A stretch of DNA of 64,000 nt from an uncultured Chthonomonas sp. Lineage in GTDB: Bacteria; Armatimonadota; Chthonomonadetes; Chthonomonadales; Chthonomonadaceae. Below the pieces are notes generated by a model. It did no database searches. It saw nothing but the letters and a program-made list of their open reading frames with translations, and had not been told where the DNA came from. Location of the stretch: assembly GCA_903859705.1 (NCBI GenBank), contig CAIONQ010000009.1:1-64000 (forward strand), in the 5' to 3' direction. The translations under genes were made by a program, and so were the position numbers. Positions 55,913 to 64,000 of this stretch are shown here, piece after piece (position 1 is the first letter of the stretch; every line of letters starts with the position of its first letter).

Positions 55913-56047
55913 GGGGTTGGGGATTGGGCGGTGGCAGTGATGAAGCAGGCTGCCATCATCCGGGCCGCCAAATAGCGATATGGATACATACCGTGTAGCA
56001 GTACGCTCTTGTGTTTCACCCGAACGGCGAAAGAGGGAGTAACAACA

Positions 56048-57826
56048 ATGGTATCTCTTCAAAAGCGAGTGCCGCATGCTAACACGGTATGTGTGCCTGC
56101 CATTTGTGCACCAAATACTCTGGCGTGGACCGATCATAAAGACGGAAAGATCCAACTCTGCACCTATTCCTATAGCTCTACAACTGCAGAACCAATTTTT
56201 GGCATTGTTCGAGATCCCGGGTTTGAGCCCGCGCCAAATACCTCGCCGGCAGTCGCGTTTTTCAACCTCGTTTGCTATGTCGCCTGGATGCAGAACCCGG
56301 CAGATGCTGGCTTCATTCCCCCATCGGTAGAGCGGCACCAACCGCCCGTTATAGTTTCAGGCTGCTTCAACGGTATTGAGTGGGTGAATGTTGAGCCACT
56401 GTGGGACCCCGCGCTATCTGGCGCTGATGTTTGGGTGGAGGGCTATCAGGGGCCGGCTGCTACTTCTGCTCCTGCACTTACCGCCACAGAGACCGGCCTG
56501 CTTTGCGCCTGGATTGAGCTTGCAACGGATGGATCTGATGCCCTGGCACTGTGGTATGAGGGGCAATCGGTATCTCCGCCACCACAACAGCAAATATTTT
56601 ACGCAATACACAAAGGCGCAACCTGGAGCCCGCGTAAGCCCGTTCCGCATGCGCGTAGCTCCAACACACCAGCCCTGACATTTCATAACAAAACCGTATA
56701 CATGGCATTTGTTGGAGAGAGTACAGATCATGTGTACTATACCGAGTATACAGACCATAGCGGCTGGGCAAAACCTGCGGCCATACCCGGAGTGCATAGC
56801 TCTACGGGCCCGGCATTGACTGCGGATGGCGACGGCAAACTGCACATGGCCTGGGTAGATTCTACAACCGGAAACATGATGCGCCGAGACCGCAATGCTG
56901 GTGTTCTCTGGGACCCGGCAAATCCAGAGAATGGCTGGCACGATCCCATTACGATGCCGGTTATTAAAACAGGGATGTCGCCAGCCCTTGCTGCGCCACA
57001 AAATTCTGGAAGTTCTGCAGTGCTGGCATATAAAGGCAAAACACAGCCAGATATCTATGTAGTTCCGCTTAATTCATTCGACGTTATACCGAGGCCCAGC
57101 CCCAACCTCGGCAGCAGCACTAATTACGAGATGAACGACGGTGGAAAGCCCTTACTGGGTGTAAAAGTTATTCTTGAAATTACTGAGGACGTTGTACTGG
57201 CTTACGATGGCCCCCCACAGGCGGGCCTTCCCTCAGTCACCGGCTTTGCTTTCCAGTTGAATGCCAGATCAGAAGATGGTTACGATGTGTACATGCAGCA
57301 GTACATCTTCCAGATATTTGGAAATGAGCTTCAAAGCAATATCAACAACTGGAATGCAGCAAACAAAGAACTGATAAACCAAACGGTTGGAATATGCTCA
57401 CCACCAAATGCGAATGTACTGCCCGCCGGCACGCGGCTGTTGCTTGAACTTGTGCAGGCCCATGATGGCACTGTAAGCGGAGGTATCTTCAACGCTATGA
57501 ATGCGCATGGGCACTCTCTTGGAACCTGTGTTAATAGCATACACTTGCCTGCAGGGCAAACATCCCCCGTTACAGCAATCCAACTCGACCTGGTTGGGCC
57601 AGAAGATGGCGAGGCAGCAAAACTAATATCAGGCGCAGGCACAATAACCTACATTAGTAATAACACTCTTGTACCCGATCCAAGCTTTCAAGATCCCGCT
57701 ACAGGTAATTTCTGGATAGTAGTAGAGCAGGCCAACAGCCGATACCAGGGCCTGCCCGGATACCCAACAAACACCATAGAACAGAGGTTTGCGGTGGACG
57801 TAGGGCAGCCAATCCACTTCAGATAG
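56048..57826 (+). CDS. Six-repeat beta-propeller protein with an unknown C-terminal domain
   Basis: 592 residues, no signal peptide. Residues 1-340 hold six repeats, each a short hydrophobic strand near a Pro-Ala-(Leu/Val) followed about ten residues later by an (Ala-Trp/Ala-Tyr/Ala-Phe) strand (ANTVCVPAI, TSPAVAF, TSAPALTAT, SNTPALTF, SSTGPALTA, GMSPALAA). That spacing suits a six-bladed propeller similar to sialidase or fucose-lectin folds. The last 250 residues (from FDVIPRPSPN) look beta-rich with an EITEDVVLAYDGPPQ strand; I do not recognise them. GAGGGAG is eight bases before the ATG at 56048. Lectin or hydrolase are both possible. Confidence 0.6.
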   Translation: MVSLQKRVPHANTVCVPAICAPNTLAWTDHKDGKIQLCTYSYSSTTAEPIFGIVRDPGFEPAPNTSPAVAFFNLVCYVAWMQNPADAGFIPPSVERHQPPVIVSGCFNGIEWVNVEPLWDPALSGADVWVEGYQGPAATSAPALTATETGLLCAWIELATDGSDALALWYEGQSVSPPPQQQIFYAIHKGATWSPRKPVPHARSSNTPALTFHNKTVYMAFVGESTDHVYYTEYTDHSGWAKPAAIPGVHSSTGPALTADGDGKLHMAWVDSTTGNMMRRDRNAGVLWDPANPENGWHDPITMPVIKTGMSPALAAPQNSGSSAVLAYKGKTQPDIYVVPLNSFDVIPRPSPNLGSSTNYEMNDGGKPLLGVKVILEITEDVVLAYDGPPQAGLPSVTGFAFQLNARSEDGYDVYMQQYIFQIFGNELQSNINNWNAANKELINQTVGICSPPNANVLPAGTRLLLELVQAHDGTVSGGIFNAMNAHGHSLGTCVNSIHLPAGQTSPVTAIQLDLVGPEDGEAAKLISGAGTITYISNNTLVPDPSFQDPATGNFWIVVEQANSRYQGLPGYPTNTIEQRFAVDVGQPIHFR

Positions 57827-59769: not shown

Positions 59770-60243
59770 ATTTATGTATTTTCCGAATCCCGCGTGTCTT
59801 TAGATCGGTACTTCTGAATTCCATCGAGACAACCTTTCGCCAAAGTTCATCGATCGGTTTCCGATTTATCGCCGGACGCATGGAATTCAATAAAATGTGT
59901 GCCGTGAGATCTGCGAGCTGTGAACCGGTAGCAGGGTTGCGAGGTCGATGCCCGGAGCGCTACCGTGTTCCGCGTAGTATTGAGCCTGTTTAGCAGTAAG
60001 AAGTTTGGTTGCCTTCATTTCAGACCGCTCTGGCGGTTCTGCTGTCAGAATATGCGTTCGGCGCACGATCCTGCGTTGCTCGTCAGAAAAACCCGTATCG
60101 CGCATGCAATATCGCATCTTTGCTTGAAATACCGCTACAACGAGACCCCGGTAGCGGGTCTCATCAATACCAAACCCACCATAAGCATGGCTGATTTGGC
60201 CGGTGTCATCGGTTTCATAGCTTTCATCGAGAAATATCAGCAT
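59768..60243 (-). pseudogene. DUF3800 gene with frameshift and internal loss
   Basis: The N-terminal part (60243-59887, 118 codons) opens MLIFLDESYETDDT, the conserved Leu-Asp-Glu start of DUF3800 nuclease-like proteins, and carries GGFGIDETRYRGL and SEMKATKLL. It ends at a stop inside the third base frame. In the next frame, over the same region, a second piece reads RPRNPATGSQLADLTAHILLN to KTRGIRKIHK with a stop at 59768. SQLADL is the conserved C-terminal DUF3800 motif. The middle of a normal protein (about 80-100 residues) is absent, so this is a frameshift plus deletion. DUF3800 proteins are RNase-H-like and often in defence sets. Confidence 0.75.
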
Positions 60244-60312: not shown

Positions 60313-63300
60313 TTACGGCCAGTATCTATCTCCACAGCGCGGGCACATGAAGTGTGCTGCCCGCAGGGGTTCCACGCTATCGCTAAGTAGGAAGTTGCAG
60401 TGCGGGCAGTAGTAGGCATTGGCACCGTACTCTTCTGACGAGTCTGGCATCATCTGCCCTTTTAGGCGGTACAGGTGCGCAAACAGGCTGGCTGCATTGC
60501 GGCTGGCCTCTGTTTCATACACAAAGTAGGCATCGGCCAGTATAGGATCTCGGCCGAAAGCACGCCGCAATATGCGATCTGCCCCGCGCCTATCTATCCC
60601 CACAAGGCCCAGGCTTCCAAGCGATTTAACACCCTCGGCAAGTGCCGCAACGTACCGTGCCTCTTTTTGTTCGGCTCGGTACTGGCTGATGTGTACGTTC
60701 AGGCACTGCCGCAGTATGCCGTAACTGGAGGATAGCAGGGTCATTACCGCCGAGTTGAAATCCAGCGGAACCCTCGCCTCGGTTTCTGTTACGCCCGCTA
60801 CACCCTGCGGGTAAAACACTCGGAACTCGCTGCCAGCAACCTGATACCAGCCCTCTCGCTTTATCTCACCCCGGTCCGCAGGGTTCCACTCAAAAATGCC
60901 ATCGGCGGGGCGACCCAGCAGCACAAGCTGCAGCCACCACTCCTCAGTTTCTTCTACTCTGCGCGGGGGCACAAGTGGGTCTAGCCAGTTCACATCTCGG
61001 CGGGTATGCCAGAAGTGGAAATCGGTGGCGGCGCCTTCTGCGCTCTGCAGAGCAGTAAGGTCGTAAGCATGGCTGCTGATAACGCCTTCCATCTGCCCGA
61101 AGGTAAAGCCGTGCCTCTCTTGAACGATTAGCAGCCGGAATGGATCGTGGCTATCTGTGATCTTCCCATCGCGGGCAAGGGCAACATCGGTCTCTATCTT
61201 GGCTGCCATCTGCATGGTTCTGGGATCGGTGCGGCTGAGATCCATAAATGCAAGGTTCTGTGCCTGTGGGCGTATTGCGCGCGCGCCCTGCAGTTGGGGC
61301 GATATCTGAGCCCCATGTACCCCGAGGCGCGGTGCGCTGAGCTGGATAACGGTATCCAGATCGGGAACAGACATCTTATCTGCAATATGTACCTGGCCTC
61401 GCAACGGCTCGAAGAAGGCACGGGCACGGGCCTGGATGCCAGCAATAAGATCCTGCGGAATGCACTCCATAGCGGTGGCTCTGCCTGGCCTGGGATCGAA
61501 GCTGCTCTGGCCATCGGCCAGTTTAAGGTCCTGAGCAAGTGCCTCGAGCGGTTTCAGCACATCCCGGCGCGCGGCGGCCTCTTTCTGCACGTCGTCCCAG
61601 CCGGTGCCGCTCTCACCCGGCCACATGGCCTGGCGCAGCAGGCTGTAGTACTCCTCTGTAACCGTACCACGCGCAGCAGGTGGCTCGGCATCAAAGTACA
61701 CATGGCCGTTAACGGTAGGTACATCAGAGCTCATAGCCTTCCAGGAGTCATTTAGCCCGGCTGCTTCCTGGCTAAAGGCAGATTGCATGGCATCCAGTCT
61801 GCGCAACAGAAGAGCGGTGGCATTGCGATGTTTTTCGGCCAGCTGTGGGATCATATCCCGGCGCTGCAAGTGGCCAGCACCCTGAGTTTTGAGCTCGTTC
61901 TTAAGATAATCCTCCAGGGCGCTCAGTACACCAGCCCAGGCCTGCGCAAGCTTCTCTTTTTTGCCGAAGGGGTTATGGCTGTTCTGAATGCGCTCTGCCT
62001 CGGCAAGCGCCTCATCCAGGGTGGCTTTGAGCGATTTCGAATCCTGCCTTAGTTCCGGCAGTACCTCCTGTATGCCGGTGGATGCTGCCTCGAGGCGCTT
62101 GAGGCGCTCTGCAAGCACTGCAGACACAAACGCTGGCCCGCCATCCAGATCAAATAACGACCGGGATACGAACTGCAGTACCTCTGCATCGGTGCGGCTC
62201 AACATGCCGCCAACGCTGTCATCCATAATGCCGGCGAGGGAGGGTGCAGTGCCATCGGCCAGCGGAACGGCCGATTCGGAGGCGGTGAGGCGTGTTTCAA
62301 AATCTCTTAGCAGTTGCCGAACGTTCTCAACACGAGGCGCCTTGCCCGTGCTATCGGTTAAAACGGCATCGCGCAGTGCCTGCGTGCCCAGTTTGTCGTT
62401 GCCCTCATCGGTAAGCCGCTGAAGCAGGCTGTTAAGCTCTGGCTCGCCAGTGCTGCTGAACGCTCGCAGCGCCTCTGAAATTCTTTCTGGCGAGGCCTGG
62501 CTTCTGCACCACGCCTCTAACGCACCCCCCATAAGGCGGGTTGTGGCGGCCCGCAAAATGTGCTCGCCCGGATACTCCAGCGCTGCCATGCCCATGGTGC
62601 TGAACAGAGGGCGCATAAAGCCAACGCTATCCGCCGTTTCCATATTGCCCTTGGCATCTACATCACGCGCTGCGATGGCACCGCCCGCTGGGCCGGATGC
62701 TGCGGCCAGGTACTGACCAATCATAACGTTAAGGCGGCGCACGTCCGCACCTTCGGGTCCGCCAGGCATCAAAACACGGGTGATAACGTAAGGCTTTTCG
62801 GTTCTGCGAGAAGGACCATCGTTGCCGGGCAACTTCTGCAACCAGGCCGTGCTCTCAAGCTGATAATGGTTCAACTCTTTGAGGGCGTAGTAGGCGTTCT
62901 TTTTGTAACGTGCAGCTTTTCCGCCAGTTAATTGTGGGTGCGGCACGGTGAAGATTGCCTGGCAGTCTATTCCATCTCCGTACCATTCTCTCAGAAGGTA
63001 GCCCATATCGGCACAGGCACCACTGCAGGTACCGCCGCAAAGCGTACCAACCACATACACCACGGTATCGGTATGGATATCCACTTTCAGATCCGAGCGG
63101 CCAAGCTGATCTGCAACGGATTGGGGTGTAAGCTGCTTGAGGGCAGATAGCTCCGCCATAGAGCGGCGTTTGAGCCGATCGTAAGTGGCAGATTCCGAGG
63201 ATGTGGACGAGTGAAACACACAAAGGCGACCCAGCATGCGCAGGTTGCCCGCGCCAGCCGATGGGTTGTCGATGGCTCGAAGGCTCTGGCCATCCTGCCA

Positions 63301-63567
63301 GTTGTAAAAATCGAATTCGGCACCTGCCGTGCGCGGTGCGTTGAGGTAGGGCGCGTACTCTTCGCGGCTGATGCCAGCGCGGATAATACGATCTCCCAGG
63401 GGGGAATCTGGCTGTTCGGTTTCCACCACCAACAGGCGCACCCAGGAGGCTTTTTCGAAGCCGCCAAACTGCCAGGTGAGGTGCTCTGCAACGGCTTCAG
63501 CAACCTCTTTACCTGTTGTTCCAAGTCCCAGGATAAAAGTTCTACGGATAGAAAGCGTCTCTGCCAT
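60313..63567 (-). CDS. Tubulin/FtsZ-like GTPase with C-terminal zinc ribbon (Tubulin_2 type)
   Basis: 1084 residues. The N-terminal 300 residues have a GTPase layout: glycine loop FILGLGTTGKEVAE (11-23), LLVVETEQPD, and the tubulin/FtsZ signature GTLCGGTCSGACADMG (174-189, canonical GGGTGSG, here with a Cys substitution). The central 500 residues are helical, with coiled-coil stretches (about 470-620). The C-terminus has a CPHC (1054-1057) and CPRC (1075-1078) zinc ribbon. The ATG overlaps the stop of the upstream gene by one base (TGATG), with AAAGG eleven bases before. Pfam Tubulin_2 (PF13809) fits best. Cellular role unknown. Confidence 0.78.
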   Translation of the reverse strand: MAETLSIRRTFILGLGTTGKEVAEAVAEHLTWQFGGFEKASWVRLLVVETEQPDSPLGDRIIRAGISREEYAPYLNAPRTAGAEFDFYNWQDGQSLRAIDNPSAGAGNLRMLGRLCVFHSSTSSESATYDRLKRRSMAELSALKQLTPQSVADQLGRSDLKVDIHTDTVVYVVGTLCGGTCSGACADMGYLLREWYGDGIDCQAIFTVPHPQLTGGKAARYKKNAYYALKELNHYQLESTAWLQKLPGNDGPSRRTEKPYVITRVLMPGGPEGADVRRLNVMIGQYLAAASGPAGGAIAARDVDAKGNMETADSVGFMRPLFSTMGMAALEYPGEHILRAATTRLMGGALEAWCRSQASPERISEALRAFSSTGEPELNSLLQRLTDEGNDKLGTQALRDAVLTDSTGKAPRVENVRQLLRDFETRLTASESAVPLADGTAPSLAGIMDDSVGGMLSRTDAEVLQFVSRSLFDLDGGPAFVSAVLAERLKRLEAASTGIQEVLPELRQDSKSLKATLDEALAEAERIQNSHNPFGKKEKLAQAWAGVLSALEDYLKNELKTQGAGHLQRRDMIPQLAEKHRNATALLLRRLDAMQSAFSQEAAGLNDSWKAMSSDVPTVNGHVYFDAEPPAARGTVTEEYYSLLRQAMWPGESGTGWDDVQKEAAARRDVLKPLEALAQDLKLADGQSSFDPRPGRATAMECIPQDLIAGIQARARAFFEPLRGQVHIADKMSVPDLDTVIQLSAPRLGVHGAQISPQLQGARAIRPQAQNLAFMDLSRTDPRTMQMAAKIETDVALARDGKITDSHDPFRLLIVQERHGFTFGQMEGVISSHAYDLTALQSAEGAATDFHFWHTRRDVNWLDPLVPPRRVEETEEWWLQLVLLGRPADGIFEWNPADRGEIKREGWYQVAGSEFRVFYPQGVAGVTETEARVPLDFNSAVMTLLSSSYGILRQCLNVHISQYRAEQKEARYVAALAEGVKSLGSLGLVGIDRRGADRILRRAFGRDPILADAYFVYETEASRNAASLFAHLYRLKGQMMPDSSEEYGANAYYCPHCNFLLSDSVEPLRAAHFMCPRCGDRYWP

Positions 63568-64000
63568 CAGGATCGGCTGCCTTTCTGAACCTCAAATACC
63601 ACTTCAAAACGTGTCTTTTCGCCGGTATCGGCCGCCTGCACACGGCATAGTACGCGCTTACCGGGGGATGTGCTGAGCTTGTGCCCATTGCATTTATCGG
63701 CATCGGTACCCTGAATCTCTACAAATTGATAGCTTCCTTCGGCCTCTGCCAGCAGGCTCTTATCTGCGGCAACCTGAATGCGTGCAATAACCACCGCATC
63801 GCCGGGAAGGGCCGGTTGCGTGCTGCCATCGGTTGGTGGAGATAGATCGATAAGGCGTGCCTTCCCACCAGGATCTTTGAAAAGCGCCCAGGCGCTTGCA
63901 GCAGTAAGGGCTGGAAAAGCAAACTCATCAGGCCCCACGGAGAAGCGAGCCACGCCCGGCACCGCCGGGGATGCTGGCGGCGCGGCGGTTTTAGGCCCGG
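63567..64000 (-). CDS. Unknown gene upstream of and coupled to the tubulin-like gene (runs off window)
   Basis: The frame is open to the right edge (144 codons). It begins with a Pro/Ala-rich linker (GPKTAAPPASPAVPG), then a domain of about 125 residues with FSVGPDEFAFPAL and strands ending RFEVVFEVQKGSRS. The apparent GTG start at 63962 is inside this linker, so the real start lies beyond the window. The linker suggests a multidomain protein, such as a vWA or protein-kinase product, as often precedes Tubulin_2 genes as far as I recall. A CNGHKL motif is too short to call metal binding. Its stop overlaps the next ATG (TGATG), so the proteins work together. Confidence 0.65.
   Translation of the reverse strand, partial: GPKTAAPPASPAVPGVARFSVGPDEFAFPALTAASAWALFKDPGGKARLIDLSPPTDGSTQPALPGDAVVIARIQVAADKSLLAEAEGSYQFVEIQGTDADKCNGHKLSTSPGKRVLCRVQAADTGEKTRFEVVFEVQKGSRS

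Follow-up and report, generated by a model that had tools for sequence, protein, structure and literature searches.

A Tubulin_2/FtsZl1-family gene in a conserved operon with Hsp70-, GrpE-, and vWA-like genes in an uncultured Chthonomonas

What is a bacterial tubulin-like protein of more than a thousand residues, and with which partners does it work? The question was raised by a reading of the bare DNA sequence (hereafter, the sequence-only reading) of a 64,000-nucleotide stretch from an uncultured Chthonomonas. This stretch, the window, comprises bases 1–64000 of contig CAIONQ010000009.1 (C9; 79138 bases) in a 6.2-Mb draft genome, and the numbering of C9 and the window is identical. The reading placed a 1084-residue tubulin-type protein, coupled to its upstream neighbor, at 60313–64000. 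The open reading frame (ORF) on the minus strand indeed encodes 1084 amino acids, and the span contains the tubulin gene; it also takes in the C-terminal end of its upstream neighbor, a gene that extends to 65012. The protein belongs to the already named FtsZl1/Tubulin_2 family and, as a protein, is not new. What is new, judged by the openly licensed literature searched, is its setting, in which tubulin stands with an Hsp70/GrpE-like pair, a zinc-ribbon/propeller-like protein, and a vWA-like protein and, in relatives, with a motor pair.

Family, fold, and nucleotide loops of the tubulin-like protein

The Pfam search identified PF13809 (Tubulin_2) over residues 12–347 (126.9 bits against a gathering cut-off of 27; E = 1.4e-36), and the window copy was the sole PF13809 gene in the whole genome. 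Full-length orthologues were 76%, 52%, 51%, 49%, and 43% identical, the closest of which came from an uncultured Chthonomonas metagenome-assembled genome (Armatimonadota), the nearest named relative in the searched set. The sequence-only reading had called Tubulin_2 proteins poorly described, which was correct in part. The family was named FtsZl1 in 2010 by Makarova and Koonin, who in their main text listed vWA, kinase, GTPase, and OmpA neighbors and proposed membrane remodeling (PMC2875224), and neighborhoods with tubulin, Hsp70, and vWA were interpreted as conflict systems in 2020 (PMC7159879). No tested function for FtsZl1 since its naming was found in the literature searched. The likeness to FtsZl1, as the main text of the 2010 paper describes it, covers the sequence family, a length of ~1050 aa, the N-terminal FtsZ-like domain, the helical middle and C-terminal part, and the vWA and OmpA neighbors (PMC2875224). 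The clade of the window goes beyond this description in its C-terminal zinc ribbon and CGGTCSG loop.

The N-terminal domain is a relative of tubulin-fold GTPases, as judged by three tests that agreed (nucleotide loops, profiles, and a low-confidence structure model). The sequence-only reading had reported a tubulin-type nucleotide loop; both a T1-like loop and a T4-like signature loop (GTLCGGTCSGACAD) were in place, and alignments showed that they were kept across 28 relatives and within the seven-member window clade. The profile of the N-terminal part of the family matched a profile built from 30 FtsZ proteins of related genomes (88% probability, E = 3.1e-6, 146 columns), whereas unrelated control pairs gave <1%. 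The AlphaFold model of residues 1–400, built from an alignment of three sequences, was of low confidence (mean predicted local distance difference test (pLDDT) score of 45.9; predicted template modeling score of 0.50). Its best PDB chains were gamma-tubulin (Z of 13.0), CetZ (12.9), bacterial tubulin (12.2), and FtsZ (12.0); the top matches all belonged to the tubulin superfamily (Z of 11–13), including TubZ, and Foldseek retrieved tubulins and TubZ (E of about 4e-4). As it is low in confidence, the model supports the fold and not the details of the active site. PDB sequence searches using the window protein and three family profiles (A1, A2, and A3) returned no significant match.

The protein was rightly read as distinct from the FtsZ of cell division. 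Canonical FtsZ is encoded separately by a 432-aa ORF on contig C105, which was the only PF00091 match in the genome (E = 1.2e-52), and the window protein showed neither a PF00091 match above the cut-off nor an FtsZ-like size. Its likeness to FtsZ, tubulin, CetZ, and TubZ lies in the N-terminal fold and the nucleotide loops, whereas it is two to three times larger, and neither FtsZ_C nor Tubulin_C was recognized in it. Unlike ftsZ, its gene is not linked to division genes.

A Cys in place of the canonical Gly of the signature had been pointed out from the sequence; two such changes, C177 and C181, were found instead of one. In the loop GTLCGGTCSG, the first Gly position (C177) is also Cys in many Tubulin_2 proteins. 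C181 (TCSG) is Cys in most of the window clade and in Deinococcus and Gly in one clade member (L057), and it is not conserved through the entire clade. Because C177 is widespread in Tubulin_2 and C181 is found in most of the clade and in Deinococcus, the distribution of the substitutions identifies them as an inherited mark.

Beyond the GTPase domain, the full-length AlphaFold model (two sequences) had a mean pLDDT of 35. It was of use for the proposed helical central region, as helices at ~393–430 and ~500–565 (block pLDDT of 63–86) were its sole confident parts. The proposed C-terminal Cys4 zinc ribbon is real, as judged by its conservation. C1054, C1075, and C1078 were invariant in seven aligned clade proteins (alignment A1), while the second ligand, C1057, was Cys in the window, L032, L034, and L058 and replaced by Gly-His in L038 and L057. 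Comparable C-terminal Cys pairs were observed in the Tubulin_2 proteins of L062/L063 and Deinococcus.

A five-gene operon and its conservation in relatives

The tubulin gene (TUB) is the last of five genes on one strand, preceded by genes for Hsp70-like (HSP), GrpE-like (GRPE), propeller-like (PROP), and vWA-like (VWA) proteins in the order HSP–GRPE–PROP–VWA–TUB (Table 1). The HSP/GRPE and GRPE/PROP junctions are both ATGA, PROP and VWA are separated by a gap of about 25 bases, and VWA and TUB meet in TGATG, the one-base overlap already seen in the sequence-only reading. These ATGA and TGATG junctions suggest that the operon is translationally coupled, in agreement with the coupling of tubulin to its upstream gene proposed there. 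A scan for promoters and terminators downstream of the tubulin gene found none. A methyltransferase gene upstream of HSP, which had a PADLOC match to the methyltransferase-type mad2 model, was considered as a further operon member and rejected; it overlaps HSP but was absent beside the operon in relatives.

Conservation was evaluated by running seven family profiles, including those for MotA-like (MOTA) and OmpA-like (OMPA) proteins, on all six-frame ORFs of 57 loci; positions relative to tubulin were mapped in 55. Partners lay on the strand of tubulin in 81 of 82 cases (HSP, 20/20; GRPE, 8/8; PROP, 16/16; VWA, 16/17; MOTA, 11/11; OMPA, 10/10), and the odd one was a weak VWA match (E = 5e-4). 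GRPE, PROP, and VWA were always upstream of tubulin, HSP was upstream in 14 of 20 cases and downstream in six, and MOTA and OMPA were invariably downstream. The order HSP–GRPE–PROP–VWA–TUB was found in L002, L034, and L038 and the order GRPE–PROP–VWA–TUB in L100, and the genes beyond the far side of the operon block differed among these four loci. L104 appears to hold the whole set including the motor pair, with HSP, a GrpE-like slot (PF01025, E = 0.001, below the cut-off), PROP, VWA, a small transmembrane protein, TUB, MOTA, and OMPA in a row. Deinococcus plasmids carry a vWA–tubulin–motor version (VWA-like protein, small transmembrane protein, tubulin, MotA-like protein, and OmpA), which places it in cultured bacteria. 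Of the 30 loci whose sequence reached far enough to either side, 19 had at least one of HSP, PROP, VWA, and MOTA.

The partners were assigned by family rather than by the window member alone. PF00012 was matched by 11 of 19 HSP members (best, 1.3e-65); the window member was below the threshold and has SIDFGTRNT, EPIAAA, DSGGGTTD, and YVGGT at the right places. For GRPE, the window member was below the cut-off (E = 0.024) and that of G011 above it, and the profile comparison gave 95%. PROP had a weak Pfam match (PQQ_2, 0.036). No Pfam vWA match was found in any of 13 VWA members, and the family profile compared directly with vWA reached 12.9% only. Homologues in the same operon slot of L111 and L054 keep a metal-ion-dependent adhesion site (MIDAS) of the form DVSGS and reached 63.8% against vWA, and they matched the VWA family of the window with 94.6% probability over 332 columns. 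The upstream gene is vWA-like, then, by a distant match through these slot homologues; the MIDAS Asp is lost throughout the VWA subfamily of the window, where FATGH takes the place of DxSxS. The NCBIfam SrfA family was dropped as an assignment for this gene (E = 0.012; 15 bits against a cut-off of 150).

For the motor pair, MotA_ExbB (PF01618) was matched by six of 11 MOTA members. Throughout the MOTA family, the G, G, and T of the GLLGTV motif (G-x-x-G-T) are invariant, and its proteins have long coiled-coil tails; the PADLOC ZorA models matched them weakly, mostly within the coiled coil. The OMPA members have one N-terminal transmembrane segment starting with an invariant Asp16 and then an OmpA (peptidoglycan-binding) domain. 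One transmembrane segment with an Asp followed by an OmpA domain is the plan of MotB and ZorB.

The motor pair was absent beside the window gene, and the genome encoded no long MotA-type protein and only two short TolQ/MotA-type proteins. The window clade (L057, L032, L002, L034, L038, L058, and L100) had strong support in a quick tree of 54 tubulins computed by maximum likelihood. Its first branch, L057, keeps MOTA and OMPA, and the sister group includes members with the pair; on the simplest reading, the pair appears to have been lost within the window clade. The tree mixes families, which suggests transfer.

Variants of individual genes were also observed. The GrpE-like protein at L034:981-2360 (459 aa) seems to consist of two tandem GrpE-like heads, and at L103:6768-8504, between the tubulin and Hsp70-like genes, a further vWA-type protein is encoded whose MIDAS is clear (DASRS). 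On a Deinococcus actinosclerus plasmid (L064:14052-19024), OmpA is followed by a leucine-rich-repeat-variant protein and then by a kinase fused to SH3 and beta-helix repeats. The Tubulin_2 gene of Deinococcus radiophilus pRadio2 (L065:8995-13285) is split by an IS630-family transposase gene, while it is whole on three other Deinococcus plasmids.

Table 1. Features of the tubulin-like protein and its operon (C9 and window numbering are identical)
Feature	Position	Strand	Basis or remark
Tubulin_2/FtsZl1-family protein, 1084 aa, final operon gene	60313..63567	-	Pfam PF13809, full-length orthologues
N-terminal tubulin-like GTPase domain, residues 1-347	62527..63567	-	Pfam, profile-profile match, model
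T1-like nucleotide loop FILGLGTTG, residues 11-19 (LGLGTTG = 13-19)	63511..63537	-	28-member family alignment
T4-like signature loop, residues 174-187, C177 and C181 at canonical Gly positions	63007..63048	-	Alignments
C-terminal zinc ribbon C1054, C1057, C1075, C1078, then conserved end RYWP	60334..60408	-	Alignment A1
VWA, 481 aa: signal peptide, predicted periplasmic vWA-like domain, degenerate MIDAS, one transmembrane segment, cytoplasmic beta-rich tail	63567-65012 (window part 63567..64000)	-	Profiles
PROP, 468 aa: N-terminal zinc ribbons and propeller-like repeats	C9 65038-66444	-	Beyond window end
GRPE: GrpE-like, about 221 aa	C9 66441-67103	-	Beyond window end
HSP, 851 aa: zinc ribbon and Hsp70/actin-like ATPase	C9 67100-69655	-	Beyond window end

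Proposed mechanism and alternatives

The operon gives a concrete picture of a tubulin-family GTPase beside an Hsp70/GrpE-type pair and a vWA-like receptor, to which relatives add a stator-type motor. We rate it an even chance that the tubulin-like protein is a subunit of an inner-membrane-anchored NTPase machine encoded by the coupled five-gene operon, with assembly under the control of a vWA receptor and turnover by Hsp70/GrpE. From the predicted topology of the vWA-like protein (signal peptide, periplasmic domain, one transmembrane segment, and cytoplasmic tail), it would serve as receptor and membrane anchor, and its tail would control the putative, GTP-dependent formation of oligomers or filaments by the tubulin-like GTPase. 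Assembly would proceed through the long helical C-terminal part and the zinc ribbon. Later in this putative order of action, the Hsp70-like ATPase, the GrpE-like exchange factor, and the zinc-ribbon/propeller-like adaptor would drive loading and release. In relatives, the machine would be linked to a channel of the MotA/ZorA type and to a peptidoglycan-binding partner of the OmpA/ZorB type; because relatives join these two, ion flow through the inner membrane probably powered the ancestral machine or was sensed by it. The coupling, if real, would make this a new kind of bacterial inner-membrane machine and would bear on the kinship of tubulin-type assemblies, motors like that of Zorya, and conflict systems run by chaperones.

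A further step, which we put forward tentatively and with some doubt, is that an ion-driven stator anchored to peptidoglycan has FtsZl1/Tubulin_2 as its partner in the cytoplasm; the window derivative of this machine would have kept the ATPase, GTPase, and receptor and lost the motor. How an FtsZ-like protein of the cytoplasm could cooperate with OmpA proteins was a question raised in the review of the 2010 paper (reviewer comments, PMC2875224); if true, the stator would answer this puzzle. The main text of that paper names no Hsp70/GrpE or MotA-like partners (PMC2875224). The link between the operon and stators was not found in the main texts of the openly licensed literature searched, and neither tubulin nor FtsZ is named in the main text of a recent study on relatives of stators.

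Several observations weigh against the proposed machine. Eleven of the 30 loci with adequate flanking sequence had none of HSP, PROP, VWA, and MOTA; thus, Tubulin_2 also works in other settings. The propeller assignment lies under the Pfam cut-offs, and the vWA identity of the window neighbor is a two-step profile chain to a protein whose MIDAS Asp is gone. The structure models are low in confidence (mean pLDDT of 35 for the full length and 46 for residues 1–400). The ancestral state relies on a quick tree, which has long branches and signs of transfer between families, and on genes missing from draft genomes. The literature searched yielded no experiment on a member of the protein family.

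The first alternative, which we consider unlikely, is a conflict or defense system, in which tubulin would be an NTP-dependent scaffold or effector acting after an invader signal, or part of a Zorya-like sensor of envelope damage. The sequence-only reading had suggested that the protein may belong to a filament-based conflict or signaling system. The defense alternative draws on Kaur et al. (2020), whose main text reads tubulin/Hsp70/vWA neighborhoods as GTPase-centric conflict systems and lists components as found here, i.e., tubulin with a C-terminal helical domain, Hsp70 and GrpE, vWA with a transmembrane segment, and zinc ribbons (PMC7159879). In that text, however, tubulin and Hsp70/GrpE are non-overlapping themes around DO-GTPase/GAP1, whereas here they share one operon, and MotA, TolQ, and ExbB are not mentioned (PMC7159879). 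GAP1-N2 (PF20013; control positive) was absent from the genome of the window, as was DO-GTPase2 (PF19993; Corynebacterium glutamicum control positive), the only DO-GTPase type searched, and no Pfam GTPase was found among the operon proteins. The absence of GAP1-N2 and DO-GTPase2 places the operon outside the system of Kaur et al. as defined; it may work like the DO-GTPase/GAP1 conflict systems though it is no member.

A defense role would also fit the resemblance of the coiled-coil MotA-like protein and OmpA partner of relatives to ZorA and ZorB. ZorA, of the MotA/MotB-like anti-phage motor Zorya, has a long coiled-coil tail (PMC11890865), and the relatives share with Zorya a MotA-like protein with such a tail and an OmpA protein with one transmembrane segment and a conserved Asp. 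In contrast to Zorya, no Zorya effectors were seen, a tubulin-like GTPase adjoins the motor genes, and the window lacks the pair; no ZorA plus ZorB was found in its operon, the look-alikes in relatives being distant. Plasmids of Deinococcus, Meiothermus, and Thermus carry family members, one of which is beside brxL, and PtuA and type IV restriction genes occur near some tubulin loci; however, a patchy distribution is no proof of defense. PADLOC matched no known-defense-system model to the operon proteins, and no nuclease or toxin effector was found in the conserved set. In a PADLOC survey at a threshold of 1e-10, 91 families were matched by the 110 flanking genes and 8 by the 110 control genes, but most of the families listed were redundant PtuA models that fell on three proteins. 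A defense role for the operon is possible but unproven.

Decidedly unlikely, in our view, is that filaments of FtsZl1, with vWA and OmpA proteins as their partners in the membrane, give the inner membrane its shape or make it bud, although this was the proposal made from genomic context in the main text of the 2010 paper (PMC2875224) and the anchor of the operon is predicted to lie at the inner membrane. The OmpA partners look like MotB/ZorB beside a MotA-like channel and not like outer-membrane barrels, which points to an ion-driven or sensing complex rather than to vesicle formation.

A role in envelope transport or secretion is highly improbable. Suggested by a reviewer of the 2010 paper (reviewer comments, PMC2875224), it would have Hsp70/GrpE prepare a substrate that vWA, with the ion motor in relatives, moves. 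Hsp70, GrpE, and ion-driven stators are known providers of force, but no pore, secretin, or substrate gene was seen conserved in the surveyed loci, where profiling covered the named families.

It is scarcely credible that the window version is a functionless remnant. In favor of this reading are the motor pair missing in the clade, the missing MIDAS Asp, and an adjoining DUF3800-like remnant. Against it, the five ORFs are intact and coupled; a full-length identity of 76 to 43% in several genera and families, in which nucleotide loops and zinc ligands stay invariant, needs purifying selection; and the loss of the MIDAS Asp is common to the whole subfamily and thus not decay of the window copy.

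Neighboring genes and other Tubulin_2 loci

The viral collection gave one match, L200:7896-11297 (IMGVR_UViG_3300031452_000003), with a Tubulin_2 57% identical to an Armatimonadota group. Genes resembling those for a replicative helicase and a repressor are found within a few kb of it, and it is probably host DNA beside a provirus. A phage origin of the window gene was considered and is not supported, as this single match looks like host DNA. On the Thermus oshimai plasmid pTHEOS01 (L067:3730-13381), the setting of Tubulin_2 is another one and includes a BREX gene, in the order TROVE protein, vWA protein, Tubulin_2, hypothetical protein, and brxL.

The sequence-only reading had described a decay zone of defense-type genes (DUF3800, Fic, and DUF1152) close to the tubulin gene, of which a weak version remained. 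No Fic motif was found in the window by a simple motif scan, and the DUF1152-like ORF reached E = 0.031 only. Directly after the tubulin gene, a 118-aa ORF (59887-60243) without a Pfam match has a DUF3800-like N-terminus (MLIFLDES) and is probably a remnant. Farther along, a 605-aa protein (56009-57826), likewise without a Pfam match, has repeated PALT-type segments and a lectin-like look.

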